From positions 1 to 26,176 of IMG/VR virus record IMGVR_UViG_3300043539_002725: 26,176 nucleotides of DNA. One strand, given 5' to 3'. Under the pieces are notes generated by a model. That model did no database searches and was not told the DNA's origin. It was given only the letters and a program-made list of their open reading frames with translations. Source of the DNA: a virus. Position numbers and translations under genes: made by a program. Every line of letters starts with the position of its first letter. The stretch's first letter is position 1. This document shows positions 4,526 to 26,176 of the stretch, in pieces.

Positions 4526-4996
4526 ATGGCAGATGGTGTTACATATGGTTTAGCGTTTCCCTTTGAAAACTCCAATAAAGGAGATTATCTATTATTGACA
4601 GAAACTCAGTTTGCACAAATAAGAAGTGACCTAATTCACTTGTTACTAACAAGAAAAGGTTCTCGATACTATCTCCCAACATTTGGTACTAGGTTATACG
4701 AATTTTTATTTGAACCTTTTGATGGTTTAACCTTTGATGCTATTGAAGCGGACATAAGAGATTCTGTTCAGCAATTTATGCCAAACTTACTTATAAACAA
4801 TATTACAATTGAACCTGCAGACCCTTCTGAAGAAGTTCCACTTGCGAGAGGTGAAAGTATTCCAGGGCAAGCGAAGGATAATGTTTTCCGTGTTCCTGGA
4901 AAAGGGACCTCGGAGTATACAGCAAAAGTTAAAATTGATTATGCTGTAGATAATAACACTTTCGCACAAAGTGATTTTGTTATCTTGAATATTTAA
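4526..4996 (+). CDS. gp25: Baseplate wedge protein, GPW/gp25 family
   Basis: Structural protein of the inner baseplate wedge at the tail-sheath end in contractile-tailed phages; the family includes T4 gp25, P2 gpW and type VI secretion TssE. The hallmark segment RKGSRYYLPTFGTRL lies at 43-57, followed by YEFLFEP (58-64), matching the family pattern of a basic-Gly-Arg turn and a conserved FG before a hydrophobic helix. At 156 aa it is slightly longer than T4 gp25 (132 aa). The C-terminal half (about 95-156) is a beta-rich extension I cannot place. gp6 follows after 6 nt, the wedge pairing expected of this family. The start is ATGGCA with no Shine-Dalgarno. Confidence 0.88.
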   Translation: MADGVTYGLAFPFENSNKGDYLLLTETQFAQIRSDLIHLLLTRKGSRYYLPTFGTRLYEFLFEPFDGLTFDAIEADIRDSVQQFMPNLLINNITIEPADPSEEVPLARGESIPGQAKDNVFRVPGKGTSEYTAKVKIDYAVDNNTFAQSDFVILNI

Positions 4997-5002
4997 CAAT
5001 AT

Positions 5003-6841
5003 ATGGCTACAAACAGAATATCCTACACTGCTAGGGATTACGAAAGCATCAGAGTTGAATTACAAAACTATGTAAGAACATACTATCCTGAATTGATTCA
5101 GGATTTCAACGATGCTTCAGTATTTTCTGTTTTTCTTGATTTGAACGCAGCAATCGCGGACAACCTACATTACAATATTGACAGGAGTATCCAGGAAACT
5201 GTCCTACAATATGCTCAGCAAAGGTCCTCAATATACAATATAGCCAGAACATACGGTCTTAAAGTTCCTGGACAAAGACCTTCAGTTGCTTTAGTTGATT
5301 ATTCAATCACTGTTCCTGCTTTTGGGGATAAGGAAGATGAAAGATACTTAGGTATTCTCACTCGTGGTTCACAGGTTTTTGGTGCTGGCATTGCATTTGA
5401 AAACCAAAACGATGTTGATTTTGCTTCACCATATAATAGTTCGGGATTTCCAAACAGAACAAAAATTCCTAACTTCGATGCTAATGGAAATTTAATTAAT
5501 TATACAATAACCAAAAGAGAATTGGTTGTTAATGGTATTACAAAAGTTTTCAAAAGAGTTATCAATCCAGCCGACGTTAGACCTTTCTATGAATTATTTC
5601 TTCCTGAGAAAAACGTTTTGGGGATAACAAGCGTACTTCTAAAATCGGGAACTAACTATACCAATGTGCCAACAGCATCAGAGTTTATTGGTCTAGAAAA
5701 TAGATGGTTAGAGGTTGATGCTTTAGCCGAAGATAGAGTTTTCATTGAAGACCCAACAAAAGTGTCAGACCAGCCAGGAATTAAAGTAGGAAGATACGTT
5801 CAAACAAACAGTCGTTTCATTACGGAATTTACTCCAGAAGGATTTTTGAAAATGACTTTCGGGGGAGGTACAACTTCAGCTCAAGATAGTTTTAATGCTT
5901 TCACAAATCTGGGGGTTCCAGTCAACATCCAATCGTTGAGTAATAACTTCTCACTAGGGTCGACACTAGCACCAAACTCGACACTATTTGTACAATACAG
6001 AATAGGTGGGGGATTAGCTACAAACATAGGTACAAACGTTATTAACCAAATTGGAACAGTATCATTCTTTGTTAATGGTCCTTCACAAACCATTAACTCT
6101 GCTGTAATCAACTCACTAAGATGTAATAACCCAACGGCAGCAATAGGTGGTTCAAATGTTCCCACAACCGAAGAAGTTAGAAACTATGTCAGTTTTAACT
6201 TTTCAGCTCAAAAAAGAGCCGTTACCGTTAATGATTATGAGTCTTTACTTCGCAACATGCCAAGTCAATTTGGTGCGCCAGCAAAAGTATCAATTACAGA
6301 AAACAACAACAAAATCCTAATCAATTTACTATCTTTTGATACCTCAGGTAAATTGACAAACATTGTATCAAATACCCTTAAACAAAACGTTGCAAATTAC
6401 CTCTCTAACTATCGAATGATTAATGATTACATTCAGGTAACCACAGCGAACGTGATTGACCTTGGGGTTGAAGTCTCAGTTGTTCTTGATGCCACCCAAA
6501 ATTCTGGGCAAGTTGTTTCTGAGATTGTTAACCGAGTGTCAGAATATTTTAATCCAATCGGAAGAGAGTTAGGGCAGAACGTATATTTGTCGCAACTAAG
6601 AAGTATTGTTCAGAATCAAATAGGGGTTATTACGGTAACTGATATTATAATTTCAAATAAAGTGGGGGGTCAGTATTCCGGAGCTGAAACATCAATGGCT
6701 TATTCAGACCCAGAATTAAAAATTATTGCTCCTGTTGACGATACAATTTTTGCTGAGCCAGACCAAATCTACCAAGTTAGATATCCTCAAAAAGATATTG
6801 TAGTAAGAGTTAAGAATTTACAGAACGTATCTTTTACTTAA
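5003..6841 (+). CDS. gp6: Baseplate wedge protein, gp6/Baseplate_J-like
   Basis: Main wedge protein that dimerises and links neighbouring wedges into the ring around the tail hub. The N-terminus has the characteristic opening YTARDYESIRVEL (8-20), then a helical region with FNDASVFSVFLDLNAA and AQQRSSIYNIARTYGL, which resembles the gp6 pattern of helices ending in QKR and a Tyr/Gly turn. AQKRAVTVNDYESLL (about 402-416) matches the conserved NRAVTxxDY region of gp6/gpJ proteins. At 612 aa it is close to T4 gp6 (660). It sits 6 nt after gp25 and ends a two-gene unit; a 91-nt gap with TATTTAT follows. Assignment rests on motif recognition and on the gp25 neighbour. Confidence 0.85.
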   Translation: MATNRISYTARDYESIRVELQNYVRTYYPELIQDFNDASVFSVFLDLNAAIADNLHYNIDRSIQETVLQYAQQRSSIYNIARTYGLKVPGQRPSVALVDYSITVPAFGDKEDERYLGILTRGSQVFGAGIAFENQNDVDFASPYNSSGFPNRTKIPNFDANGNLINYTITKRELVVNGITKVFKRVINPADVRPFYELFLPEKNVLGITSVLLKSGTNYTNVPTASEFIGLENRWLEVDALAEDRVFIEDPTKVSDQPGIKVGRYVQTNSRFITEFTPEGFLKMTFGGGTTSAQDSFNAFTNLGVPVNIQSLSNNFSLGSTLAPNSTLFVQYRIGGGLATNIGTNVINQIGTVSFFVNGPSQTINSAVINSLRCNNPTAAIGGSNVPTTEEVRNYVSFNFSAQKRAVTVNDYESLLRNMPSQFGAPAKVSITENNNKILINLLSFDTSGKLTNIVSNTLKQNVANYLSNYRMINDYIQVTTANVIDLGVEVSVVLDATQNSGQVVSEIVNRVSEYFNPIGRELGQNVYLSQLRSIVQNQIGVITVTDIIISNKVGGQYSGAETSMAYSDPELKIIAPVDDTIFAEPDQIYQVRYPQKDIVVRVKNLQNVSFT

Positions 6842-6932: not shown

Positions 6933-9900
6933 ATGGGACAGTCCTTGAGAATAAACACTAGTGTTGGTATAGATAAAAACATTTCATTCCAATTAGACCA
7001 AGATTTTGAGTTTCTTGAAATCCTATCTCTTCAAATATTTCAAAATGATATTTACCCAAGAGATTGTGCTGATTTCGGAGTTGTTGTCGGTAGAGTTGTT
7101 GCAAACGGTGGACTTGGAATACCAAACGCAAAAGTATCGATTTTTGTTCCAATCACAGAGGCTGATGCCCTGAACGACAGAATAGTTCAGTTATACCCGT
7201 ATACACAACCTAACGATAAAAATGATGATGGATACCGGTTTAACTTATTACCATATCTACAATCCTATTCAACTCATGCTGCAACCGGAACTTTCCCTTC
7301 AAGAGAGGATGTTCTCAAAGACCCTGTTGTAGTCGATATCTACGACAAATATTATAAGTTTACCGTAAAAACCAATGATAGCGGAGACTTCATGATTTTA
7401 GGTGTCCCTGTTGGACAGCAAACAATTGTTATGGATTTGGACTTGAGTGATATTGGAGAATTTTCTCTTACACCACAAGATTTAATTAGAATTGGTTTAG
7501 CAACAGAAGCACAAGTTGCAGGAAGTACATTCAGAACTTCAACTGACCTAGATTCACTTCCACAAATTATTCACATTGAAAAGGTTTTTGAAGTTGCTCC
7601 ATTCTGGGGTGAGCCTACAATTTGCCAATCGTCAATAAGTAGAATCGATTTTGATTTAAGAGATGAAGCGAACATTGACATCCAACCTACGGCAGTGTTC
7701 ATGGGTTCAATTTATTCTACTGGTGATGAGTTTAAAATTGCTGCACCACTTGGTTTTGGTAATGAACCACCTTCTTTGCTGACTGCCGGATGTAAGCCAA
7801 AAGATAATATGGGGAATCTTTGTGATTTGACTACTGGTCCAGGGCAACTTTTAGCTGTAAGACAAACTATAGTCCAAGATGACCAAGGGAGACCAATTCT
7901 TGAAGAATACCGTTTAGAAAATTCGGGTAATGTAATCGATGAAAATGGTACTTGGTTGGTAGAGGTTCCAATGAACATGGACTACTTAACCACCAATGAG
8001 GAAGGGCAAAGAATTTTTTCTAGAGACCCTCGTGTTGGTATACCGACAAAAAGCAAATACCGTTTTAAAGTAAAGTGGCAACAAGCACCTACAGATACAG
8101 AACCGGTCAAAAGAGCTTATTATTTATTACCTAATGTTAGGGAGTGGGGTTGGAGAACGGCAGTTATTGACCCAAACTATGATAACTCATTGAATACAAG
8201 CCGAGAACTTGCTAGTTCATATTATTTTGGTCTTGATTGGACAGGATATACTGATGCAGAATCTGCAACAGTTTCAAATCAAAAGTTGCAGGCAGCAATA
8301 AATTGTCAAGACACCTTTTATGAGTTTGAGTATAATAAAGTTTATACTCCTGCAGGTTTAATTGACCAATATAAGAGGGGAATTAACAGAGGAAGATTTA
8401 TAGGTATTAAGGAGATTGGGGATAGTGATTGTGAAACAACGGTGAATAAGTTTCCGGTAAATGATGGTGTAAAGAACTTTAGCACCCAGTTTTTTCTCTT
8501 TGCAATTTTGATGCAATTCATTCAACAATTATTCCCTATAATTTTGATTATTTACCATGTTTTAGGATTTGTTATTAATACGTTTATAGTTCCATTAATT
8601 CAACTAGTTGTAAGGTTTCAGAATATTGTTGCTTATGCTTTATTAGTAATTGGTGGTGCTCTAGCTATTTTTGCTGGAGCTGGAATACCTTTAATTGTTG
8701 CTGGTGTTGGTTTGTTATTAGGGGGGCAATCCTTAAGTAATCTTTTACAAAGATTTGTCCAATTTTTGAGATTTGGGCCTTTACGACTCCCGATGATAAC
8801 TTATCCCGAGTGTCAGAATTGTGATTGTACGTCCCCAAGTTTGGATGGTGGTGGTGACTCAACACCAAATTCATTATTGACACCATTAACACAGAGTGGT
8901 TTATATTTTGAAGCACTGGAAGATTATCCTGGTTTACCTGCTCCAGCAACTGATGATGGTGACGTTAGTGATGGAAACATTTCTGTTCTTTCATTAATTT
9001 TTTCTGAAGCAATAGGAACTAGAAATGCTGATGCTAAAAAATTAGCACAAGATAATTCGACGGAGTCACAAATCTCAAGATTACCTGATACAAGAAATTC
9101 AATAAGAATCCCTAAAAAAGTTTTTGCAATATCCTCTGATATTCCAATGGCTCAAAGAATTAATATTTTTAATACCCGAAAAAAATATTTTGATAATGTA
9201 AATAAAATAAGTGTAAGTTTTGATAATCCAAATAATTTAACAACACAACACTTTGATAATACGTTAACAATTCTTACTCAATCACCCCTTGCTGCTGGCA
9301 CACTTTTAACTTGTGTGGGTATAGACAAAACTGAGGATGTAAATTTCCTTTATTCAGGAAATACGCTTTTTGGTGGTATCAGTGGAACCACTCTTCTTTC
9401 AGGCGCGGGAACCGTAACGGTAAACTATGCAACAAGCCAAACTGCAAATGCAAGTAAAACTTACTTTTTGAACACGGGTTCTACAATTAACAATTACAAA
9501 TTTCCTGCCGATTTGGAATACTACCAGGTTCTTACAGCTATAACCGTCAGTGATGCTTTTGCAATTGCAAGTGGGGGAATACTAAATGTGTTGGACTCAT
9601 CAACCGAAATTGATTGGTCAATTTTGAATTTTGATTTTGGAGGGTGGGCATCTCAAACCTCGGTGAATATCAAAACCAGAGATTTTTATGATGGATTTGA
9701 CAATCAATACATTTTAATTCTTCAAAGAGGTGTTGACCCATATTCACCCCTCTACACTAACCGATATGGTATTGGAAGTTTATTTGGATTATCAAATACA
9801 AATTCATTGACTTTTACTGCGCAAACAAGACTTAATATTCCTATACAGGCTCTACCTGCAAATGGAATTTCAGTTCAAAACCACACCAGTCAAAACAACA

Positions 9901-11933
9901 TCTTCTATTCATCTTATTTCTTTGAAGCAACTAATGACTTTACTGCTTTTACAACAAGCAATGTGGGTTATTATAGTGCTATTGATGGCAATAGAAACTA
10001 TTCAATTTACAATAATCCAACCGTTGGTCCAATTAACACTCCTCTTATTACAACGGGCCAGATGGGATGGGTTTCAAACTATCTTAATACGCCCACAAAT
10101 AGTTCCGTTGAAATTGTGGTTAGTAAAGATACTAATGAGTCTTTTAGTTTTACACCAAACCCAGCAAACTATGATGCAACTGAAGACTTGTCTGGTGCAG
10201 ATTTTTATTGGACAGTATTAGATGGGGGAACTAATCCACCCAATAATCCTAAAAATTGTAGCAGTGTTTATTATAGTTTTTCTTTATTACCCACAGTTGA
10301 TAGCACAAATACAAAGCTAAATGTTTCTAATAAAGCTAGAAATGTAATGCGCACAGACCGATTGCCATCATCTGATTTTTTAGATGGTAATGCATGGGAT
10401 TCTATTGTTCCAGTTTTACAAATGAACCGTGGGTTTACCATGTATATTCTTGACACCGGTGGTGAGAGTATTGCCACAACAACTTATGGCTCTGGGGCTA
10501 GTATTGTTGGAAATGATATTGAGGATTTACCAAATGCTTTGAATATAACAGAAACATTTTCATGCGAAAACATGGTAAGTTTAGATTGTTATTCTAATGT
10601 CGACAATACACTTGTTGTTGATGTAAATTGTGCTGAAGAAGATAGAATAGAACGTGGTTGTTTTGTTTTTGCTAAAAGATTACTTATTGGATTACCAAGG
10701 GATTTAAATGCTTTCACTGAATGGGGCTTACGATACAGATTTTTCTACGCATTGTGTCAAGGGGTAGTTTCACAAACATTTACAAACAACTGGGTTAATG
10801 GAAGTTTGTACACGTTTCCGTTTGCTGTAAGAACACTTTATGGTGCTAATAATCAAATTTCTAGAAGAGTGTTTTGTAAAGACCTCATTTATTATAATGA
10901 AGACAGCAATAATTTTTACTACAGAAGTAGTCCATACAGCCCAACAAGCGACAGCTTTGTTGGAAAATTAAATAATCCACTTACTGGTTCTTTAAACGAT
11001 TATAGTTTAAAAACTCCAGCAACTATCATGAACCTAGGGCCTAAAACAGCAATTTTCAAAGAGCTCACTTTGAATCCCTCGGATGATGGTTTTGTTATGG
11101 ATGTTCTCACTCCGACAAGTTATGGAGACACAAGTGATTTGTTAAACTTGTTTGTAATTACAAGAATGACAAATGCTTCTTACCTCAGATTCTTACTTCA
11201 GTATTATCCAGGTGTTGCAGGAACTAACTTAGCAATTAACAGTTTATTTTCTAGACCACTTCTAAGACTTGATGGGGATATTACTCAAATGCTTTCAATT
11301 AATTCTGAATTTGGGGTTATAAAATTCAGTTCACAAAGTTATCAGGATGACCCTAATGACCCTAATAATCCGATTTACATCGCAAGAAATCCGAACGGAT
11401 TTTCGGTAATGGGTATTTTCTATTCATCGACTACTGAAGATTTACAATACAAGGATTACTTATCGCCAGGAAGAATAAATTTCAGACCAACACCTTCTTC
11501 AAATGCTTTTCCTTATTATTATGATTTGAAATCACAAAGAGTTCCTTTTTATCGTTGGAGAAGAGATGATGTTGCAGAATTGTGGAGCAGCATAAACGTC
11601 GTACTCAACTTAGGAAATCAAGTTGGAATATTCGGAACTCAAAGTAATGACTGGGCAACAGACAACTCTGACATTTTTAGCAAGAATTATCAAGCACAAG
11701 ATAGGACAGACCCATCGCAACCATCATATTTTTTGGGTTCAAATTCACAACTAAACGACATTGATGCCAGGGGATATATTTTTAATGTCGATGCAAATGG
11801 AAATTACTCAACAACAGCAGGAAACTATCCAGACGTTTTTGCAGTAGGCGCACCAAACCATTTTTACTTTGGTTTAATAAAAGGAGGGACTTCATTAGAT
11901 AGGTTCAAATCAAAATACTTAGCAGATGAATAG
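6933..11933 (+). CDS. Very large phage structural protein (1666 aa) with internal hydrophobic block; function unknown
   Basis: I do not recognise a named family for the whole protein. The N-terminal region has a carboxypeptidase-regulatory-like beta fold signature: FGVVVGRVVANGGLG and IPNAKVSIFVPI at about 48-74, then SGDFMILGVPVG at 151-162. In the middle, residues 520-597 are almost purely hydrophobic (FFLFAILMQF, PIILIIYHVLGFVI, IVAYALLVIGGALAIF, IPLIVAGVGLLLGG), enough for three or four membrane helices. A CxxCxC cluster follows (C627, C630, C632). The remaining thousand residues are Asn/Ser/Tyr-rich and beta-like with a second Cys-rich stretch near 1210-1255, ending in HFYFGLIKGGTSLDRF. 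There is no signal peptide. It follows gp6 and overlaps the next gene by 8 nt. Its place in a baseplate operon suggests a tail or baseplate component; membrane contact during infection is possible but unproven. Confidence 0.7.
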   Translation: MGQSLRINTSVGIDKNISFQLDQDFEFLEILSLQIFQNDIYPRDCADFGVVVGRVVANGGLGIPNAKVSIFVPITEADALNDRIVQLYPYTQPNDKNDDGYRFNLLPYLQSYSTHAATGTFPSREDVLKDPVVVDIYDKYYKFTVKTNDSGDFMILGVPVGQQTIVMDLDLSDIGEFSLTPQDLIRIGLATEAQVAGSTFRTSTDLDSLPQIIHIEKVFEVAPFWGEPTICQSSISRIDFDLRDEANIDIQPTAVFMGSIYSTGDEFKIAAPLGFGNEPPSLLTAGCKPKDNMGNLCDLTTGPGQLLAVRQTIVQDDQGRPILEEYRLENSGNVIDENGTWLVEVPMNMDYLTTNEEGQRIFSRDPRVGIPTKSKYRFKVKWQQAPTDTEPVKRAYYLLPNVREWGWRTAVIDPNYDNSLNTSRELASSYYFGLDWTGYTDAESATVSNQKLQAAINCQDTFYEFEYNKVYTPAGLIDQYKRGINRGRFIGIKEIGDSDCETTVNKFPVNDGVKNFSTQFFLFAILMQFIQQLFPIILIIYHVLGFVINTFIVPLIQLVVRFQNIVAYALLVIGGALAIFAGAGIPLIVAGVGLLLGGQSLSNLLQRFVQFLRFGPLRLPMITYPECQNCDCTSPSLDGGGDSTPNSLLTPLTQSGLYFEALEDYPGLPAPATDDGDVSDGNISVLSLIFSEAIGTRNADAKKLAQDNSTESQISRLPDTRNSIRIPKKVFAISSDIPMAQRINIFNTRKKYFDNVNKISVSFDNPNNLTTQHFDNTLTILTQSPLAAGTLLTCVGIDKTEDVNFLYSGNTLFGGISGTTLLSGAGTVTVNYATSQTANASKTYFLNTGSTINNYKFPADLEYYQVLTAITVSDAFAIASGGILNVLDSSTEIDWSILNFDFGGWASQTSVNIKTRDFYDGFDNQYILILQRGVDPYSPLYTNRYGIGSLFGLSNTNSLTFTAQTRLNIPIQALPANGISVQNHTSQNNIFYSSYFFEATNDFTAFTTSNVGYYSAIDGNRNYSIYNNPTVGPINTPLITTGQMGWVSNYLNTPTNSSVEIVVSKDTNESFSFTPNPANYDATEDLSGADFYWTVLDGGTNPPNNPKNCSSVYYSFSLLPTVDSTNTKLNVSNKARNVMRTDRLPSSDFLDGNAWDSIVPVLQMNRGFTMYILDTGGESIATTTYGSGASIVGNDIEDLPNALNITETFSCENMVSLDCYSNVDNTLVVDVNCAEEDRIERGCFVFAKRLLIGLPRDLNAFTEWGLRYRFFYALCQGVVSQTFTNNWVNGSLYTFPFAVRTLYGANNQISRRVFCKDLIYYNEDSNNFYYRSSPYSPTSDSFVGKLNNPLTGSLNDYSLKTPATIMNLGPKTAIFKELTLNPSDDGFVMDVLTPTSYGDTSDLLNLFVITRMTNASYLRFLLQYYPGVAGTNLAINSLFSRPLLRLDGDITQMLSINSEFGVIKFSSQSYQDDPNDPNNPIYIARNPNGFSVMGIFYSSTTEDLQYKDYLSPGRINFRPTPSSNAFPYYYDLKSQRVPFYRWRRDDVAELWSSINVVLNLGNQVGIFGTQSNDWATDNSDIFSKNYQAQDRTDPSQPSYFLGSNSQLNDIDARGYIFNVDANGNYSTTAGNYPDVFAVGAPNHFYFGLIKGGTSLDRFKSKYLADE

Positions 11934-15542: not shown

Positions 15543-16451
15543 GTGGCAATCGGGACTTATGGTACAATTAGAACGGCGGATGTATCGCCGGAGGATGTAG
15601 AAATCATCCTAAATTATACACCATCAAGGGATGAGACGGCGGACTTTGTTCTAACGACCCTTGACGCACCAAGCGTGCTTAGACCATACTTCAACAATGC
15701 TGCCACTGGTGGTAATGCAAATGTTGAGGTTTTGGGTGGATTATACAACCTAACACTTCCTGCTGATGTGTTTAATCAGGTCGGAATTTATACAATGATG
15801 CTCCGACCTGCACAGATTAGAACATCAATTACCGATTGTGGTGTCCTATCAGCTTTGCCAAACGTTAAAGGTATTATTATTGACCTTAACAATGTTCCTT
15901 CTCAATTCAGAAACAAATTTGCACCGCAGGGACTTATTGGATTTAGAGTTGAATATTTGAATCCAGATGGTTCCAAGATTCCAAACTTCTTTAGAATTGT
16001 AACTTCGAACTTCTATTGTGAGCCAGTGGTTGTGAACCAAGTAAACACAACACAGAAAGCTATCAGATATCGTTACGTGGAAGGCGTGACAAACCTTATG
16101 TTCTGTACTTTGTCACCTTCGTCATCCCCGACGAATAAACCCAACGCAACACCATTTATTGGTCAACCAGGGCAAAGTATTGTTATGACAAACACTTACT
16201 TCAATCCAGTTACCATTGAGATTGACATGGTTGAATACGATATCTCTTCACTTGCAATTGCCCTTTACGGAAATCAGACCAAGAGTGTTGATGATGGTAT
16301 CTACACAATCTACGACAGTGATAATAACATTTACAAGCAGTACAACTTGTTTGAAATCCGTGACCAGTTCAATGCTCTTCTATACGAGGTTCGCCAGGAT
16401 AGAGGTGCTAATATTGATTTTACTAAAAACTTCACAACAATAGTTAGCTAA
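15543..16451 (+). CDS. Probable baseplate/tail structural protein, unknown family (302 aa), GTG start
   Basis: Unrecognised protein that opens the 15543-21901 unit. The start is GTG; the first in-frame ATG is about 85 codons later, and the GTGGCA context copies the ATGGCN starts of neighbouring virion genes, so GTG is well supported. The opening MAIGTYGTIRTADVSPEDVEIILNY may be helical; the rest alternates hydrophobic and polar residues with several Pro/Asn turns, fitting a compact beta-rich structural protein. KGIIIDLNNVPSQFRN and LIGFRVEYLNPDG are notable but not diagnostic. The stop overlaps the next start by one base (TAATG), coupling it to the gp7-like protein, so a wedge or connector role is plausible. 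No signal peptide or membrane helix. Confidence 0.6.
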   Translation: MAIGTYGTIRTADVSPEDVEIILNYTPSRDETADFVLTTLDAPSVLRPYFNNAATGGNANVEVLGGLYNLTLPADVFNQVGIYTMMLRPAQIRTSITDCGVLSALPNVKGIIIDLNNVPSQFRNKFAPQGLIGFRVEYLNPDGSKIPNFFRIVTSNFYCEPVVVNQVNTTQKAIRYRYVEGVTNLMFCTLSPSSSPTNKPNATPFIGQPGQSIVMTNTYFNPVTIEIDMVEYDISSLAIALYGNQTKSVDDGIYTIYDSDNNIYKQYNLFEIRDQFNALLYEVRQDRGANIDFTKNFTTIVS

Positions 16452-19400
16452 TGGCGGTAAATGGCACGAAGTTTTTCTACCCGCCTACCCCGGGAAATGG
16501 GGCTGGAACCTTTGATGATATTGTTGGATTTCAAATCGTCGAGGGTGGCGGTCTAACTTCTGCTGTTTTTGATTTTACTACTACTGTTACCGAGAAGGTA
16601 AACAGGACATTCTCTATTGGAACATTCTCGAATCCAATATCCCTTGAGGATTTGGATGTAAACTCCCTGGAAGAAAGTAGAAGAATTCTGCAGACCCAGT
16701 TTAGAGTTTATCCAAATTATGATGTTTCCCAAGTTCTTAACTTTTCTTTATATGGTTCTCTAACAAAAAGGTTGAGTGTGTCTGTTACGCACATCATCAA
16801 TTATTTTCCTGCAGGTGTTGATGTAAGAAGAGTAATGCCAGATTTTACAACTGGACAAACAGCAACAGGAATTTCCTATAATGCTGTAGAACAGGAAACA
16901 ACTTTCACAGTTCCAGTATCTCAAGCTTACAACCCATTCATGATTGAGTTCTCTCAGAGTGCTACAACAGCCATGATGGTAAGAGAATTGGAGACTTCCC
17001 AATACAGAAACTTGACAAGAAGTTATCTTAATTACGTTCTAGATTATGACGGAGAAACTTATATCGTTGTTGATTTCGAACCTTCTGTCAGTCAATCATC
17101 TGGAAACTTAGTTTTCACTGTGTCTGGTGCACCATTTGGTAACGCAACAAGTTCTACTACTCAAGATTTTATTATCAGACCTAGCAACTACATCGTTGAC
17201 AAAGTATTTCAGGAAGATTTTGACGAGGTTGAGCAGTTTTTGATGAACCGCTTAATACAACCTGAATACACAGCCAATTTCCAAGTACCACAACAAAACC
17301 AAGCTGGTCAGTTCTACACATCCTATGTTCAAGTTACGTTTCCTAAGGATGGTGATTGGAATCTAGATATTACTTCATTCAGATTTGACAACTACCTTGC
17401 AAGATTGGGGGATGTTGCGGGTGAGCTTGACACCTACAAAACAAATTTGATTTCGAGATTTTTGGTTACAGCATCAATCAAAGAATTTGATACCATGGAC
17501 CAGAAGGTTGAAAAAATCCTTCAGATTTATGGACGGAGCTTTGACCAAATCAAACAATACATCGATGCTCTGGCAAACATGAACTCAGTTCATTATGTCC
17601 CACAGAACGATATTCCATCTCAGCTTCTTTTCAATCTATCGCAAACACTAGGTTGGACAAACAACTTCTCACCAATCACCAATGAAGATTTCCTTTCAAG
17701 CGTTTTTGGAAATACTAGCCAAATTGAATACCCTGGTTTTGCCAGAGCACAAACACCAACGGAACTCAATTACCAATTCTACAGAAACCTAATTTTGAAC
17801 TCGGCATATTTGTTCAAGTCCAAAGGTACGAGAAGGTCAATTGAATTTTTATTAAGATTGATAGGTGCTCCAGAAGCTTTGATTGAATTCAACGAGCACA
17901 TTTATCTGGCAGACCAGAGAATTGACATGACTCAATTCGACAGGCAATTCGCACAACTCTCAGGTGGTACTTATGTAAATGAAATTCCAGCACTTTCTCC
18001 TGGAAATACGTTCTCAATCAGAGGTCAAATTTACACAGCTTATACTACTTCAACAACATATGAAGCGGTAAACATTCGGAGAAATGATTATCCCGTTGAT
18101 GAATTTGGATGGCCACAATCTCCAAACCCTGCAGGTACAAATGGTGTATTCTTCCAAGAAGGTGCTGGTTGGTATGAATCAACACCACAGCACAGAAGCC
18201 CGAATGAGATTACTGTAACTGGTGATGTATTCACCGGACAAAATGTTGATGTTCAAACTCAACTTGAGCCGTTTACATATGGTGGGATTTACCTTGATAG
18301 ATTTAATCAATTTCCATATATCCAAGATGGATACAAACTACAAAGAGTTCCTGACAATAAAAAATCTTGGTTAGCAACAGACGATAAGTTAAGAATTGAT
18401 ACCCAAGAGGGTTTCAATGCTTATTACTTTGTTGGTGATGAAAAGTTGGTATTGAACGTAAAGAACATCGATTTGTTTTTGAATGTGGGTCAAGGTTTGG
18501 CTTATGACGTTTGGGAGGAATCGAGATTATACAATTACCCAATTCCAGAATCAGGATTTACTGCAAACTTCCCATCTCCTGGTGGTATTGATGACACGTT
18601 CATCAACCCAGAGCCGCAAAAGAAAACATTCTTTGAGTTCTATCAAACTTTCTGGCAGAATATGATTAACACCAGAAATAGAATGTATATCTCCGATGGT
18701 AAAACAGGTGGTTACCCAACATTACAATCTGTTTTTTGGAAATACATTCAGTCTGAACAAACTGTTGGTTTACCGAATAACAAATACACATATCAGAAAC
18801 TCATCGAGTACGTTGATGCTGTTGGTCCTTATTGGATGACTTTGGTTGAACAGATGATTCCAGCAACAACACTGTGGAATACTGGTGTTAGATTGGAGAA
18901 CTCTATATTCCAAAAACAAAAATTTGTTTACCGTCGTCAAAGAGGTTGTCAACTTATTCCAGTTGAAGCTCAGCCGTGTTTCATTATTTCAAATATTTTC
19001 GATTACGATTGTAATACAGAGTACGTCGACTTTTTCATTTACCCATGGTTAAATGGTGATGTTACAGTATCGGACTTCCAGAGCATTCTAACTAACAGAG
19101 TAAATAACTATCTCATATCAGTCGGTGCCAATCAGAACTCATATAATCCAAATTCAATATCCTCTCAGTGGTACTTGAATTTAACAATTGGAACACAAAC
19201 AATTATAGATGTTTATTTCTACCAAGGAAGTGGTATAAGTGACGTTCCAACATCAACACTTTGGAGACAAACATTGATTGACAATTTGAATAATTTATAT
19301 CAGTACGGATACACTTATACTTTGAATGGTAATTTCCTTACCATAACAAACTTAGATTGTGTAACTCAAAACTCACTTCAAGAAGTATCTCTGGATGTGG

Positions 19401-19471
19401 GAATAAACATAACACTTGATTGTCCTGTAATACCTCAGGCTCAGTTAGAAGAAGAATTAGTGGTAGCATAA
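16451..19471 (+). CDS. Probable baseplate wedge protein, gp7/P2 gpI-like (1006 aa)
   Basis: Likely the third core wedge protein, which with two gp6 copies forms the wedge trimer in contractile tails. The best evidence is the central helical region: DYLARLGD-like helices near 314-325, DQKVEKILQIYGRSFDQIKQYI near 352-375, and YRNLILNSAYLFKSKGTRR followed by SIEFLLRLIGAPEAL (444-477). The KSKGTxxSIEFLLRLIG pattern resembles tail_P2_I/gp7 proteins. Length is close to T4 gp7 (1032 aa). The N-terminal 300 residues are beta-rich. The last roughly 100 residues form a separate module (DVYFYQGSGISDVPTSTLW at 920-938) that recurs in the next gene product. Start is the ATG overlapping the previous stop. 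The gp7 identity is inference from motif, size and context; the gene is separated from gp25-gp6 by five genes, unlike T4. Confidence 0.6.
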   Translation: MAVNGTKFFYPPTPGNGAGTFDDIVGFQIVEGGGLTSAVFDFTTTVTEKVNRTFSIGTFSNPISLEDLDVNSLEESRRILQTQFRVYPNYDVSQVLNFSLYGSLTKRLSVSVTHIINYFPAGVDVRRVMPDFTTGQTATGISYNAVEQETTFTVPVSQAYNPFMIEFSQSATTAMMVRELETSQYRNLTRSYLNYVLDYDGETYIVVDFEPSVSQSSGNLVFTVSGAPFGNATSSTTQDFIIRPSNYIVDKVFQEDFDEVEQFLMNRLIQPEYTANFQVPQQNQAGQFYTSYVQVTFPKDGDWNLDITSFRFDNYLARLGDVAGELDTYKTNLISRFLVTASIKEFDTMDQKVEKILQIYGRSFDQIKQYIDALANMNSVHYVPQNDIPSQLLFNLSQTLGWTNNFSPITNEDFLSSVFGNTSQIEYPGFARAQTPTELNYQFYRNLILNSAYLFKSKGTRRSIEFLLRLIGAPEALIEFNEHIYLADQRIDMTQFDRQFAQLSGGTYVNEIPALSPGNTFSIRGQIYTAYTTSTTYEAVNIRRNDYPVDEFGWPQSPNPAGTNGVFFQEGAGWYESTPQHRSPNEITVTGDVFTGQNVDVQTQLEPFTYGGIYLDRFNQFPYIQDGYKLQRVPDNKKSWLATDDKLRIDTQEGFNAYYFVGDEKLVLNVKNIDLFLNVGQGLAYDVWEESRLYNYPIPESGFTANFPSPGGIDDTFINPEPQKKTFFEFYQTFWQNMINTRNRMYISDGKTGGYPTLQSVFWKYIQSEQTVGLPNNKYTYQKLIEYVDAVGPYWMTLVEQMIPATTLWNTGVRLENSIFQKQKFVYRRQRGCQLIPVEAQPCFIISNIFDYDCNTEYVDFFIYPWLNGDVTVSDFQSILTNRVNNYLISVGANQNSYNPNSISSQWYLNLTIGTQTIIDVYFYQGSGISDVPTSTLWRQTLIDNLNNLYQYGYTYTLNGNFLTITNLDCVTQNSLQEVSLDVGINITLDCPVIPQAQLEEELVVA

Positions 19472-19472
19472 G

Positions 19473-21605
19473 ATGGCTGAAGAATTTGGTAATGGTATAG
19501 TTTTTAGCTACAACCTCAATGTAACAGGGGCTTGTCAAACTGGTTTTGGTGCCGTAGAAATTGTCCCAACGGGAGGAGTTGCTCCATACACGTTTGACTG
19601 GTATAACCCAGAGCTTGGTTTGGGGGCTTATAAAACAAATTTGCCAGCAGGAACTTACTTTGTTCGTGCAAACGATTCTGGGCTTCCGGTGAATGCACAG
19701 TTCTATATGAACATTATCGTGTCGGATTGTTTGTGTGTAAACGTATCAAATGTCAATTCAACAACTTGTGGTTCAGATAATGGTTCGGTAACTGGAACCT
19801 CCTCATCGGTGTTCTCTAGCGTTGATTATTACCTTTACACGGGAAACGATGCGTATGTCACTTCTGCAACAACAAATACCGGTCAAGTTGTATTCAATAA
19901 TTTATCTGCAGGAACTTATTATTTATATGGCTTTGATGGTGGTGGGGCGACCGGTAATAGCCAAAATTTTATTGTTCAGCAATCTGAACCACTCTCTTAT
20001 GGATTATATGTTGTTCCAAACGCATCTTGTGACGGAACAGCCCGTGGAAAGCTTTATGTTACTGGTGTAACAGGAACAGCACCTTTCACTTATTTGTGGA
20101 GTAATGGACAAACAACCAGTAGTATTACTGGTTTAACTGCAGGAGTTTACTCAGTTCAAGTTACAGATTTTTATGGTTGTCAGCTAACACAAAATGCTCA
20201 AATCACAAATGTGCCACCAATTGGATTGGGAAGTTTTACTTCTGTCCCCCCCACTTGTTTTGAGGCTGATGGAAGTGTTACTATTACAATTACTGGTGGA
20301 ACGGCACCATATTATTATTCTGCCAGTACAGGTTATGTAGAAGTCACTTATGCCACTTCTCTCACCTTAACCAATCTTAGCAGCGGGAACTACACCTTCC
20401 AGGTTACAGATGCTGCACTTTGTAGTTTAAATGCCACCACATCAATTACAAGTCCAGGAGGAATTAGTTCTGTAAATGTATCATCTACCAACTCCTCATG
20501 TTCCTCAAACGATGGAACAATCACGGTCCAAGTCATTGGTGGTATTGCACCTTACAATTATACACTTGTTAACCCAGATGGTGATACGTTATCTACAACA
20601 AGTAATCAAACAACTGAGGTTTATTCAAATTTAGCTTCAGGAACATATTCAATATTTGTCGAGGATACAACAGGTTGCGCATATACCACAGAAATAACTT
20701 TAATTTCCCAAGACAAATTCACAACATCTCTACTGACCACAGGAACAACTTGTGGAAACACTGGTGGGATAGTTCAAATTACAATTAGCTCCCAAGCAAC
20801 GTTGCCCGTTACCTATTCAATTGATGGAACAAACAACATTGTTGGTTCAAATCAATTAACGGTTACATATACAAACGTAAGTGTTGGACAACATTTGCTG
20901 ACGGTAACAGACGCTGATGGGTGTTCTATTTCGACACCATTCTCTATATCATCCACACCACCTGTTGATTTCTCTTTATATTCAACCTCATGTGGTTCTG
21001 GTAATCAAGGAACCATCACAGCATTCATCACGCAAGGGACCGCACCATTTGATTTTACTTGGAGCAATAACATCGCAGGTAATCCACAAGAAATTACAGT
21101 TGAAGGTTTAACAGGTGGAACATATTCACTTATTGTTGAGGATTTCTACGGATGCTCTCTTGCCAGACAAACAACTATTGAATGCAACGCAAAATGCGTA
21201 ACCTACCAAACCTACACGATGGGTTCAGAAATATTCAACATTCTTTCACCAACCAAACATGGCATCAATCAAATTTTGGTTGAAGGATTTAATGATTTAA
21301 CCTCAACAAATACAAATTGTACATTGTTGTCCGCAGTTTATACCGCACAAGTAGAATTGCAACCAGACAATACCTTCCTCAACAGTACTTTCTACACTGG
21401 AACCTCCTTAGTTGATGTTCCAAGCGACAACCTGTGGTTTACAACAATTACAAACCTTCTACAAAGTGTTGATGGAATTACCTCCGTTAATATCAATCCT
21501 CTAACAAATCAAATCACAATTTCTGCAAACCCAGGTAGTGCAATTGTTGGTCAAGAATTGAGTGTCAAACTAATTATAGTATACGACATCATCTGCTTGA
21601 CATGA
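19473..21605 (+). CDS. SprB-repeat fibre or adhesin-like virion protein (710 aa)
   Basis: About seven tandem units of 65-80 residues fill residues 15-570. Each resembles the SprB repeat of Bacteroidota gliding adhesins: a Cys, then an acidic/Gly-rich DGSV-type strand, GGTAPYxYxW, an aromatic WSNG, LxAGxYxVxVTD, and a GC pair. Clear cases are units near 183-245 (C186 to C236), 255-325 (C262 to C317), 335-408 (C343 to C402), 420-492 and 500-571. The C-terminal about 130 residues are a different module that aligns with the end of the preceding protein. No signal peptide or type IX secretion sorting domain is visible, so this is probably a virion part, not a secreted host protein. It starts one base after the gp7-like gene and overlaps the next by ATGA. 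A receptor-contact or spacer role is inferred. Confidence 0.8.
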   Translation: MAEEFGNGIVFSYNLNVTGACQTGFGAVEIVPTGGVAPYTFDWYNPELGLGAYKTNLPAGTYFVRANDSGLPVNAQFYMNIIVSDCLCVNVSNVNSTTCGSDNGSVTGTSSSVFSSVDYYLYTGNDAYVTSATTNTGQVVFNNLSAGTYYLYGFDGGGATGNSQNFIVQQSEPLSYGLYVVPNASCDGTARGKLYVTGVTGTAPFTYLWSNGQTTSSITGLTAGVYSVQVTDFYGCQLTQNAQITNVPPIGLGSFTSVPPTCFEADGSVTITITGGTAPYYYSASTGYVEVTYATSLTLTNLSSGNYTFQVTDAALCSLNATTSITSPGGISSVNVSSTNSSCSSNDGTITVQVIGGIAPYNYTLVNPDGDTLSTTSNQTTEVYSNLASGTYSIFVEDTTGCAYTTEITLISQDKFTTSLLTTGTTCGNTGGIVQITISSQATLPVTYSIDGTNNIVGSNQLTVTYTNVSVGQHLLTVTDADGCSISTPFSISSTPPVDFSLYSTSCGSGNQGTITAFITQGTAPFDFTWSNNIAGNPQEITVEGLTGGTYSLIVEDFYGCSLARQTTIECNAKCVTYQTYTMGSEIFNILSPTKHGINQILVEGFNDLTSTNTNCTLLSAVYTAQVELQPDNTFLNSTFYTGTSLVDVPSDNLWFTTITNLLQSVDGITSVNINPLTNQITISANPGSAIVGQELSVKLIIVYDIICLT

Positions 21606-21901
21606 CACAAATAAGAATATCTGCTGTAACAGGTGCAACACCAATTAACGTTTACGTTGCAGATATCTATGGTAACAACCAAACTTTATTAGGTGTAATC
21701 ACCAATACAGGTGCCATACCACCAGATGCTAGTTTTTACCCACCTTCATTATTTAACTCCGCACCGCAAATTATGGTCATACTTATTGACAATAATGGGT
21801 GTGAAAAATTCGAAATTATAGATTGCACATTCGGTTGCGGGTTCACAATATCCGTTGAACTTGCCAATTGTGTGGTAACAATGACGGTAACAGAAATCTA
21901 A
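21602..21901 (+). CDS. Small probable virion protein, unknown (99 aa)
   Basis: Short protein whose ATG overlaps the preceding stop as ATGA, the last gene of the 15543-21901 unit. The sequence is beta-like with GATPINVYVADIYGN at 16-30, YPPSLFNSAPQIMVILIDNN (46-65), and a cysteine pair in DCTFGC. The PxNxYxxD pattern also occurs near the N-terminus of the 510-aa protein that follows (GPFNIYID), so both may carry a similar small attachment fold, but this is weak. No signal peptide or membrane helix. Coupling to the SprB-repeat gene suggests an accessory of that fibre; function is not known. Confidence 0.6.
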   Translation: MTQIRISAVTGATPINVYVADIYGNNQTLLGVITNTGAIPPDASFYPPSLFNSAPQIMVILIDNNGCEKFEIIDCTFGCGFTISVELANCVVTMTVTEI

Positions 21902-22021: not shown

Positions 22022-23554
22022 ATGGCGTTACAAACAATTATAGTAGTTAATACCGCAAGCGGATGTAATACATCCGTTGAACAGCAAGTAACCTATGTTG
22101 GTTCACAATGTTATATTGTAAGAATTCCCGTCGGAAGTAATGCTATTGGGCCCTTCAACATTTACATCGATAGCACAGGGTCAACCCCATATTATACTTC
22201 TGTCGTTAGAAACGACATGATTAATGGTCAAGTGGTTTGTTTAGGCACAGCTCTACCAACTTCAACACCGACCCCAACACCAACACCAGGTGCGTTAACA
22301 ACAACTCCAACAGCAACACCAACACCAACGCCAACAAACACTTCTACAATAACTGCAACACCAACTATAACACCAAGCCCGACAGCAACTGTAGGAACTA
22401 CTCCTTCTCAAACCCCAAGTAATACGCCAACATCAACTGTAACACCATCAGTATCTCCGACTCAAACAGGAACGCCAACAAATACGCCTTCAGGAACTCC
22501 AACTCAAACTCCTACACCAACGTCAACCATTGGAACAACACCGTCGCAAACCCCAAGTAATACACCAACCCCATCGGTAACTTCATCAAATACACCAACA
22601 CCCACAAATACTCCAAGTAATACTGCAACAAATACACCAACACCAACAAATACTGCTACACCAACACAAACACCAACAAATACTCCAAGTAATACTGCCA
22701 CCTCAACTCAAACTCCCACACCAACTCAAACACCTTCGAACACACCATCACAAACTCCAACAAATACTCCGACAGCATCAATAACAGCAACACCTTCGAA
22801 CACACCATCAGAAACTCCGACGAATACTCCAACTCCAACTAATACTTCAACTCCTACAAATACGCCATCGAATACTCCAACAACTACTCCGACAGCAACT
22901 AATACGCCAACTCAAACCACAACTCCAACACCAACTCCTACCGGAACTCAAACAGGATTTATGGCATACATATTCGCAGAACCTCAATTATCTGGTGATG
23001 CAACCACTTTGGAAAATTATGCACTAGCTAATGGCGCTGTTGAATGGGCAACAATTTATAATAATGGTATTCCAAACAACTCCGGTGGAAATTACAGTAA
23101 CGATTTGGATGTGTATGCACATCAACCGTCTTTCGCAGTTGGCGGAGGAAACTTTGTTACAGCAGTTTCTTTAAGTGCAGCGATTGCGCAAACACCAGGT
23201 CAAGTTATAAATGGTGTTGCTCAAAATATCTATACATACGGTTCAATTCAAGTCAGCTCTGCAGCTATCAACGCTAGTATTCAATATTTTTATACTATTT
23301 GGGTTCCCCTTGCTGGTGTTGGTGGAACTTTAACTGATATGACAAATGATGTTGGTACAACCTTAGGCTCTAACGATGTTTTCAATGATATTGGTACTGT
23401 AACCACTTTGACTGCGTTAAACGTAACAGTTACAAGTGGTGCTGCAATACCAGCGGGAACTTATCGTGTACTTTGGGTTAGTCCACAATTCCAACTTCCG
23501 ATTTCACCACCATTAACAGGTAGTTTGTACTTCCGAGGTGATACTAAATCTTAA
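22022..23554 (+). CDS. Fibre-like protein with Thr/Pro-rich linker (510 aa)
   Basis: Three-part architecture. Residues 1-78 form a small beta-like head with three cysteines. Residues about 79-311 are an uninterrupted low-complexity linker of Thr-Pro units ([22 protein letters not shown]), with Asn, Ser, Gln and Ala the main other residues and no aromatic residue. Residues about 312-510 are a globular C-terminal domain, Ala/Gly/Thr-rich and beta-like, beginning [14 protein letters not shown]. The linker should be extended and could be glycosylated. The C-terminal domain would be the exposed tip, possibly the receptor-binding part. No signal peptide. The start ATGGCG follows a TATTTAT element by 12 nt, and the gene is alone in its unit. 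The fibre role is inferred from architecture and neighbours; I do not recognise either globular domain. Confidence 0.65.
22256..22954 (+). repeat. ACN/CCN low-complexity repeat encoding the Thr/Pro linker
   Basis: About 700 bp of degenerate ACA/CCA-type triplets (for example ACACCAACACCAAC) encode the Thr-Pro linker of the 510-aa protein. The + strand is very poor in G, so the - strand is G/T-rich with repeated GGTGTTGG-like tracts. Local near-repeats such as CTTCGAACACACCATC occur twice near 22732 and 22792. Confidence 0.85.
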
Positions 23555-23617: not shown

Positions 23618-26176
23618 ATGGCGTTCCCCTATAAGAATCCTACCTCACTTTCATTATTAAATGCTCCAGAGGGAGTAACTATTACCAGTAATGTTGGTAC
23701 TAATTTTTCGGTATCTCAGGTTGGTGGTTATCAAGAAGTTTTCTATCTTGATAATTTGGGCTTAACTTTTGTGGGAACTGGAACGCAACTTCTTTCAGCC
23801 AATACAATTCCAATCCAGATAAATGTTCAAGCGAATAGTGGATTAAATTTTACCCAACTAACACTTAATTCTGATAATATTTCTTCTGGTAGAAGAAGAT
23901 TAGGTATGCAGGTCTATGTTAACGAAAGTGACACTGTATATCAATACCACATTCCAGATTATGACCTTTTATGGGAAGCTTTAACGGGTCTTACTGGTTC
24001 TTCAGCAATTACTCAAAACCCTACATTTACAACTGTAAACGCTCGTTCACAAGCTGGGAGAGATTTCATTAATGTATGGACAGGGTCAACAATTGAAGGG
24101 GTAAACGGTGTAACAAGAGAAAATGCTCGTTGGAGAATATTCTGGGGAACTGACATACAAATTACAGGTGGAACTTATTATTCAGCAACCACTACTTTAG
24201 ATTTGTTTAATAGTACTGGCGGTACAGTTTCAATTACAGGATTTACAGGAACTGTTACAGGTGGCACATATAATTCAGGAACTTCGGCTTTAACTTTAAA
24301 CAATAGCGATGGTACTTCGGTAACAGTTACAGGAATAACCACATCTGGTGGCGGCACAACAGTTACGGGTGGTACTTACTTTTCCGCAGCTACTACTTTG
24401 GAATTGTACAATTCAACGGGAGGTACGGTTTCAATTTCAGGATTCACTGGTGTATTGACTGGTGGTACATACAATTCAGGTACTGGAAATTTAACGCTAA
24501 ATAATAGTGATGGAACATCTGTTGTTGTGACAGGTGTTACTGGTACTTCTGGGACAAGCGGAACAAGTGGTTCCTCTGGCACTAGTGGTGTTGGTTCATC
24601 GGGAACTTCAGGCACATCCGGAATTGATGGAACTTCAGGAACCTCAGGAGTTGATGGGACGTCTGGTACTAGTGGCCAATCAGGAACCTCAGGAACAAGT
24701 GGTGAATCTGGTACTTCAGGAACAAGTGGTATTTCAGGTACTTCAGGAACTAGTGGTATCGATGGTACCTCTGGAACAAGTGGTGTAGATGGAACATCTG
24801 GTACTAGCGGTTTAGACGGAACATCAGGTACAAGTGGTGAATCTGGTACTTCAGGAACAAGTGGTATTTCAGGGACTTCGGGCACTAGCGGTATTGATGG
24901 CACATCAGGAACAAGTGGTGTAGATGGAACATCTGGTACTAGCGGTTTAGACGGAACATCAGGTACAAGTGGCGAATCTGGCACATCAGGAACAAGTGGT
25001 GTGGATGGTACATCAGGAACTAGCGGTGAATCTGGTACCTCCGGAACAAGTGGTATAAATGGAACCTCAGGAACATCTGGTACAAGTGGCTCTGATGGTA
25101 CATCAGGAACAAGCGGAGAGTCGGGTACCTCAGGTACTAGTGGTGAATCAGGAACGTCAGGAACTAGTGGTGTTGATGGTACCTCAGGAACAAGTGGTAT
25201 TGATGGTACATCGGGTACTTCAGGAACAAGTGGTATTGATGGTACATCAGGAACAAGTGGTGAGTCTGGTACTTCAGGAACTAGTGGTGTGGATGGTACA
25301 TCAGGAACTAGCGGTGAATCTGGTACCTCCGGAACAAGTGGTGTTGATGGTACATCGGGTACTTCAGGTACAAGTGGTGTGGATGGTACATCTGGAACGA
25401 GTGGTACGACTGGTACTTCAGGAACTAGTGGTGTGGATGGTACATCAGGTACAAGTGGTGAATCCGGCACATCAGGAACAAGTGGAATTGATGGCACTTC
25501 CGGAACTAGTGGAACAAGTGGTATTGACGGTACATCAGGTACAAGCGGTGAGTCTGGTACTTCAGGAACTAGTGGTATGGATGGTACATCAGGAACAAGT
25601 GGTCAATCTGGTACTTCAGGTACGAGTGGTATTGACGGTACTTCGGGAACTTCGGGAACTTCGGGATTGAGTGGTGTTGATGGTACCAATGGAACATCTG
25701 GAAGTAGTGGTACATCAGGAACAAGTGGCCAATCGGGTACATCAGGAACCAGCGGTGAATCTGGTACGTCAGGTACAAGTGGTGAATCTGGTACGTCAGG
25801 TACAAGTGGCCAATCTGGTACATCAGGTACAAGTGGTGTTGATGGAACTTCTGGAACGTCAGGTACAAGCGGTATAGATGGAACATCGGGTACAAGTGGT
25901 GTGGATGGTACATCAGGAACAAGTGGTGAATCTGGTACTTCAGGTACGAGTGGTGAATCAGGTACATCAGGAACTAGTGGTCTAAATGGAACTTCAGGGA
26001 CTTCTGGTACAAGCGGTATAGATGGTACTTCAGGAACTTCAGGTACCAGTGGTGTTGATGGGACTTCAGGCACCTCAGGTACTAGCGGAACAACAGGTAC
26101 ATCTGGAACTAGTGGTTTGGATGGTACATCCGGTACATCAGGAACTAGTGGTCTAGATGGAACTTCAGGAACTTCA
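23618..26176 (+). CDS. Collagen-like (Gly-Thr-Ser)n fibre protein, C-terminus beyond the window
   Basis: Open frame of 853 codons from ATGGCG with no stop before the window edge, so the gene is partial at its 3' end. Residues 1-180 form a globular N-terminal domain of unknown fold ([19 protein letters not shown] start; [13 protein letters not shown] near 110-122). Residues 183-308 hold two copies of a roughly 67-residue beta module ([20 protein letters not shown] and [20 protein letters not shown]), a Gly/Thr-rich pattern often seen in phage fibres. From 309 onward the chain is Gly-X-Y triplets, mostly GTS, interrupted by GID, GVD, GLD, GES or GQS. The stretch contains no Pro, Lys, Arg or aromatic residue. 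A trimeric, rod-like side or tail fibre is the likely role; a distal tip or chaperone domain should lie downstream. All the antisense and shifted frames here are repeat artefacts. Confidence 0.8.
24164..24541 (+). repeat. Two tandem copies of a 67-residue beta module
   Basis: Copy one begins at residue 183 (24164) and copy two at residue 250 (24365), a period of 201 bp. Both run TGGTY, an aromatic/Leu strand, [33 protein letters not shown]. The second copy leads straight into the collagen-like triplets. Confidence 0.8.
24542..26176 (+). repeat. Collagen-like Gly-X-Y triplet tract
   Basis: 545 residues are visible (309-853): 181 triplets with one two-residue interruption (Gly-Val, 324-325). 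The commonest unit is nine residues, GTSGTSG plus a variable pair, with occasional 12-residue units. The variable pair alternates between hydrophobic-Asp (ID, VD, LD, MD) and polar-Ser (ES, QS). The tract continues past the window end. Confidence 0.9.
24701..24970 (+). repeat. Tandem 135-bp duplication inside the triplet tract
   Basis: 24701-24835 and 24836-24970 encode the same 45 residues (15 triplets: [12 protein letters not shown] and so on). By direct comparison they differ at eight bases, all synonymous third positions and all between codons 13 and 24 of the unit. A third partial copy begins at 24971. Confidence 0.85.

Follow-up and report, generated by a model that had tools for sequence, protein, structure and literature searches.

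Why would a phage carry, next to its baseplate genes, a protein built from the repeats of a bacterial surface adhesin? The question is raised by a 26-kb viral contig (26,176 nucleotides, hereafter the window), in which an ORF on the plus strand, like the wedge, baseplate-block and fiber genes of the window described below, spans exactly 19473–21605, from its ATG at 19473 to a stop codon ending at 21605, and encodes a 710-aa protein. An initial annotation had recognized about seven SprB-type repeats in it and had suggested that a host adhesin repeat was captured for use as a virion spacer or receptor-binding rod, possibly engaging the partners of SprB itself. The identification of the repeats is borne out by the Pfam SprB model (PF13573), which matches the protein in five stretches with an E-value of 8.3e-22 and 77 bits (cut-off 28). 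In the DNA of the window, the same model finds five copies, three of them above the curated cut-off, and it finds none in the control genomes (0/14). The number of repeats is likewise correct: in hhalign profile comparisons, seven units are mutually homologous, every pair scoring a probability of 78–99.5%.

The array consists of R1 (19494–19736, residues 8–88), R2 (19737–19988, residues 89–172), R3 (19989–20207, residues 173–245; Pfam match at 20010–20114), which is the best conserved stretch of the core, R4 (20208–20453, residues 246–327; Pfam match at 20235–20333, 41.7 bits), R5 (20454–20711, residues 328–413; Pfam match at 20478–20579), R6 (20712–20954, residues 414–494) and R7 (20955–21188, residues 495–572; Pfam match at 20988–21071). 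R1, R2 and R6 were assigned by profile comparison; R1, R2 and R7 score weakly or not at all with Pfam, yet are related to the other units by their profiles. A flexible joint (21189–21251, residues 573–593, pLDDT under 50) connects the array to a C-terminal domain (21252–21602, residues 594–710).

The AlphaFold model of the whole protein (pLDDT 83.7) predicts Ig-like domains up to residue ~572, a disordered joint at 573–593 and an alpha/beta C-terminal domain; its pTM of 0.33 is as expected for such a beads-on-a-string arrangement. Among solved structures, the nearest matches are fragments of GhpA, the grappling-hook protein of the Bacteroidota member Aureispira sp. CCB-QB1 (9flp, 9fly, 9flw, 9fls), followed by a general likeness to Ig/FN3 folds. 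GhpA forms a long, similar Ig-like rod (Foldseek E 1.9e-20; VIA Z 12.3 over 506 residues, with a large rmsd because the inter-domain angles differ), but it belongs to a cellular appendage, comprises thousands of residues, lacks the C-terminal domain of the phage protein and is only 15–20% identical to it. The best match among viral models is A0A6J5LD72 from an uncultured Caudovirales phage (UniProt/BFVD), a full-length homologue of 714 aa (34% identity over 722 columns, E 1.8e-59). It is already listed in UniProt as 'SprB repeat', so databases contained the family beforehand; the name refers to the domain only, and no description of the role or context of this entry was found.

Outside viruses, the repeats are at home almost entirely in Bacteroidota. 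A search of cellular genomes with the 710-aa protein gave 425 matching stretches, from which 78 loci were kept, 77 of them titled Bacteroidota or their genera. Residues ~8–590 align, and most cellular matches stop near residue 570–590. The sole other title is Glaciecola amylolytica (L111, CP034120.1), a record that may be mislabeled or contaminated, given that the ends of its protein closely resemble Fluviicola/Flavobacteriales entries (L143, L153). Cellular PF13573 proteins are T9SS-exported surface proteins, and many exported Bacteroidota proteins of this sort use the SprB repeat as a generic Ig-like module. They belong to the same repeat family as the phage protein but are mostly longer (1000–4200 aa in most loci) and equipped for export: a rough hydropathy test indicates a hydrophobic leader in 47 of 51, and nearly all of the 56 cellular C-termini examined match T9SS sorting domains (33 matches to type B, 24 to type A).

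Both features are missing from the phage protein, in agreement with the initial annotation. No leader peptide is present at its N-terminus (MAEEFGNGIVFSYN...) or in the aligned homologues, and at E<=0.001 NCBIfam detects a T9SS sorting domain neither in the 710-aa protein nor in any of the phage proteins (0/34), 33 of 34 of which match PF13573. The best sorting-type NCBIfam match in the window protein is an internal Por_Secre_tail (E 0.3), and Pfam Por_Secre_tail matches occur in 5 phage homologues; as the NCBIfam sorting domain is absent from all of them at the above threshold, these are regarded as cross-matches to the Ig-like repeats. A secreted adhesin was rejected on account of the absent leader and the absent sorting domain. 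A protein of different appearance is found in a 642-kb uncultured phage record filed as a huge phage (L096, LR756502.1; 7435–12447), where a 1670-aa SprB-type protein seems to begin with a signal peptide and, judged by eye, to end in a sequence similar to a T9SS type B sorting domain; it has the look of a secreted host-type adhesin, unlike the family in the window.

The gene neighborhood places the phage protein elsewhere, namely in a conserved block downstream of a gp25-like baseplate wedge gene (4526–4996; PF04965, 5e-10) and a gp6/Baseplate_J-like wedge gene (5003–6841; PF04865, 1.5e-8), so that its assignment to a baseplate gene run was justified. Genes for a DnaB-like helicase and ribonucleotide reductase lie farther upstream. 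The best conserved member of the block, a 302-aa protein (15543–16451; 81% mean identity), served as a marker for the clade. It is encoded at 438 loci in viral contigs, 80 of which were retrieved. In all marker contigs that reach the position (62/62), a homologue of the SprB-repeat protein with 34–86% identity follows directly after a gene for a conserved baseplate-block protein of 1006 aa in the window (16451–19471); one of the 62 breaks off within an added N-terminal module, but its ORF starts in the same way and the module has a homologue in a relative whose sequence is complete. The reverse search with the SprB-repeat protein gave 259 loci, and the 1006-aa gene lies upstream in each of the 80 contigs retrieved (80/80). 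Together with the gp25-like and gp6-like genes of the window, the gp23 capsid gene identified in 7/12 related contigs marks the phage clade, by its gene content, as T4-like.

Within this fixed position, the core itself is fixed in length. The seven repeats and the C-terminal domain comprise ~705 aa, and the match extends over 704–715 codons in full-length loci. The core is complete in all 33 aligned homologues, its sole internal insertion being one of 17 aa in two sequences. Modules are added only at the ends: after residue 2 (19476–19478 in the window) in seven of the 33 (112–378 aa), and past residue 710, the end of the C-terminal domain, in fifteen (98–684 aa). The additions are usually placed behind Thr-Pro-rich linkers and fall into about 16 groups without mutual BLAST match, although remote kinship between some of them is possible. 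A PARCEL/BspA-like repeat module occurs both as an end addition to the core and in separate downstream fiber genes. No module is present in the window, as in 60/77 complete ORFs of the SprB-protein sample. The conservation profile of the core is flat, with no hypervariable stretch, and its dN/dS of about 0.05–0.1 (dS saturated) reflects purifying selection. With a mean identity to the window of 49%, compared with 81% and 61% for its neighbors, the core evolves faster than they do. A diversity-generating retroelement acting on the gene was considered and rejected, as no reverse transcriptase was found in 12 related contigs, several of which are fragments.

The same stability is seen in the history of the repeats. 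In a tree of 140 phage repeats (20 phages) and 156 cellular repeats, the sequences of all 20 phages group together, with no cellular ones among them, at each of the positions R1–R5 and R7 (support 0.97–0.998; 0.998 for R1 and 0.981 for R2), while R6 resolves as a clade for just 11 of 20 phages. Because all positions but one form phage-only clades, the tree shows the array to have been assembled once, in an ancient event that preceded the divergence of these phages. The proposed capture of a host adhesin is therefore not supported as a recent or particular event, and recent capture is rejected by synteny and by the repeat tree: the gene belongs to the syntenic core of the phage clade, and its repeat positions are vertically inherited.

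The C-terminal domain points to the phage rather than to the host. Its residues 614–709 share common ancestry with the C-terminus of the 1006-aa protein encoded directly upstream (residues 896–992; 19136–19426), as shown by profile comparison (hhalign probability 96.8, E 2.4e-10) and also by HMM search (8.6e-7), whereas the seven repeats, used as negative controls, scored 0.6% or less. Both domains have the same predicted order of helix-strand-strand-helix-strand-strand-strand. Among the 78 SprB-matching cellular proteins, whose repeats do align, the C-terminal 140 residues alone gave no match, nor did tblastn detect the domain in cultured phages. On this sequence evidence, the protein is a chimera of cellular-type repeats and a phage-only C-terminal domain.

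The middle part (257–484) of the 1006-aa protein matches gp109 of Flavobacterium phage immuto, as well as a protein of 1336 aa from Microcystis phage Mel-JY01. The name gp7-like, given to its gene in the initial annotation, found no confirmation: no Pfam match was obtained, and an hhalign comparison with T4 gp7, of poor sensitivity, was negative. The model has a pLDDT of 53.8, with confident parts limited to the C-terminal domain and a stretch at ~110–320, and a fold search with this low-confidence model returned no match.

Taken together, the most probable reading (roughly 0.62) is that the SprB-repeat protein is a core rod or adaptor of the baseplate periphery, seated by its C-terminus, in T4-like phages that probably infect Bacteroidota, and that recognition is left mostly to exchangeable modules. 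The seven Ig-like repeats would form a rod of fixed length acting as a spacer or scaffold, a role already contemplated in the initial annotation and consistent with the fixed core length and the predicted Ig-like rod. The flexible joint would link this rod to the small alpha/beta domain, which most likely seats it at the baseplate edge by pairing with, or mimicking, the domain of the 1006-aa neighbor. Host recognition would be carried out mostly by interchangeable modules, attached to the core ends in some relatives. In the window, it could be provided by two separate genes just downstream, which encode a fiber-like protein with an ~80-aa N-terminal domain, a long Thr-Pro stalk and a variable C-terminal domain (22022–23554), and a collagen-like fiber protein with GTSGTSGxxG repeats (23618–26176; PF01391, E 6.9e-78) that runs past the contig end. 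We infer in this way that the protein is present in the virion, located at the baseplate and anchored there, and that the labor of binding is divided. Four findings speak against this role. The nearest cultured relatives, immuto and Mel-JY01, have no detectable SprB protein within the regions examined; in the 60 complete ORFs without a module, the core itself could bind; additions at both ends clash with a simple picture in which the C-terminus is buried and the N-terminus points outward; and the core, as noted above, evolves faster than its neighbors.

The second of these findings leads to a rival reading, according to which the repeat core is a receptor-binding adhesin acting on the Bacteroidota surface, with glycans, SprB-type proteins or the gliding/T9SS machinery as its targets. 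The repeats have their source in secreted surface proteins, and most homologues have no added tip. Phage resistance in F. columnare coincides with a loss of gliding motility, and the gliding machinery is the suspected site of the receptors (PMC7345892); host-type Ig repeats on tails have also been proposed as host-surface binders in the BACON hypothesis for crAssphage (PMC6949934). Unlike typical receptor tips, however, the array shows no hypervariable region and is invariant in the number and order of its repeats, and the variability is found in the end modules and the downstream fiber genes. Moreover, homology alone predicts no ligand, because the repeat family occurs in many unrelated secreted proteins. 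We therefore consider this reading unlikely, though the most credible of the alternatives, and the suggestion that the protein binds its receptor via the partners of SprB finds no support, given a generic repeat, a length-frozen core without a hypervariable tip and variable parts at the ends.

A capsid decoration or neck/whisker protein, as opposed to a baseplate part, is improbable. The sole PHROG match is a 'virion structural protein' of the head and packaging category (E 5.7e-7), and the best, weak, PDB sequence match is a phage decoration protein (E 0.4), but both fall inside the generic Ig-like repeats, while the gene order is that of a baseplate/fiber block and the C-terminal domain is common to the adjacent baseplate-block protein. 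Improbable, too, is a scenario in which the frozen array would be more than a spacer and would dock on SprB-like filaments or the T9SS/gliding machinery of the host, so that the phage would ride on, or be gathered by, the moving adhesins, with the end modules tuning specificity. A non-virion protein, that is, a host-like adhesin displayed or secreted by infected cells and serving, for instance, superinfection exclusion, has very little to commend it: a phage-record SprB-type protein that has both a signal peptide and an end of the T9SS type appears to exist (LR756502), but the aligned homologues here are leaderless, lack the sorting domain (0/34) and belong to a conserved baseplate block.

The nearest kind so far described is that of the BACON repeat tail proteins of crAss-like phages (PMC6949934). 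These, too, carry tandem Bacteroidetes host-type Ig-like repeats in the tail region, and the BACON array is stable within the crAssphage lineage and distinct from the bacterial domains. The SprB-repeat protein fits this tail-associated kind by its tandem host-type repeats, its tail-gene neighbors and its distinctness from bacterial domains. The BACON proteins differ in belonging to another domain family and to crAss-like rather than T4-like phages; a shared baseplate C-terminal domain or an end-module pattern does not appear in the accessible portion of the same source. In position, the protein is analogous to the T4 baseplate-periphery adaptors gp9, gp10 and gp11, which come after gp25/gp6 in the wedge/fiber run. 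No sequence kinship with these adaptors was detectable, and comparison of the neighboring proteins with T4 gp7–gp12 found nothing, in a test so weak that the true gp6 pair scored just 18%. In the literature searched, no paper describing SprB repeats as part of phage structural proteins was found; the single paper that mentions both 'SprB repeat' and 'phage' deals with Bacteroidetes toxins.

The analysis yields a concrete, testable inventory of baseplate-edge parts for an abundant uncultured T4-like clade (438 contigs with the marker), including a fixed virion-locus part that phages have built from the surface-protein repeat toolkit of Bacteroidota. Since modules attach at two fixed points only, the family offers a natural system for studying swapped host-recognition parts. 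Furthermore, a viral contig annotated with 'SprB repeat' does not necessarily carry a host gene or a gliding adhesin.

As to the host, the only named or cultured matches of the gp6-like protein are Flavobacterium phage immuto, Microcystis phage Mel-JY01 and an uncultured huge phage, and the same three are top-ranked for gp23 of a related contig. SD motifs precede 8% of start codons in the clade (background 8.7%), compared with 5% in immuto and 56% in T4, and mRNAs without SD motifs are characteristic of Bacteroidota (PMC6847099, PMC9976891). A search of cellular genomes with the 302-aa marker gave no match. Based on the SD-less starts, the Bacteroidota repeat pool and the likeness of gp6 to that of a Flavobacterium phage, the clade probably infects Bacteroidota.

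Several further observations concern the neighboring genes. The gene immediately downstream, whose start overlaps the stop of the SprB-repeat gene, encodes a 99-aa protein (21602–21901) that has a domain in common with the N-terminus of the Thr-Pro-stalk protein (hhalign 97.5%). Short proteins in two related contigs (L013, L014) also contain it, which suggests a small family of probable fiber adaptors; kinship of the 99-aa protein with the SprB domain is not claimed, the hhalign probability being just 27–32%. Within the fiber block of the same two contigs, genes that by eye are glycosyltransferase-like were noted (L013, 10634–12654; L014, 11615–13629), and six others (L064, L069, L074, L080, L082, L088) encode more SprB-like ORFs at least two genes downstream of the core gene. 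In the window, an antisense ORF (24376–25497, 373 aa) is the mirror image of the collagen-like ORF and no gene. The baseplate run also includes a 1666-aa protein (6933–11933) without a PHROGs family match, which has an extended hydrophobic, membrane-like stretch in its middle (~residues 520–610). In the ribonucleotide reductase genes (1418–2698 and 2723–4429), the N-terminus of the small subunit matches the N-terminal regions of large-subunit/NrdD profiles, while the match of the large subunit begins at profile position 230. The small subunit may accordingly carry an allosteric ATP-cone, an arrangement known from Bacteroidota.
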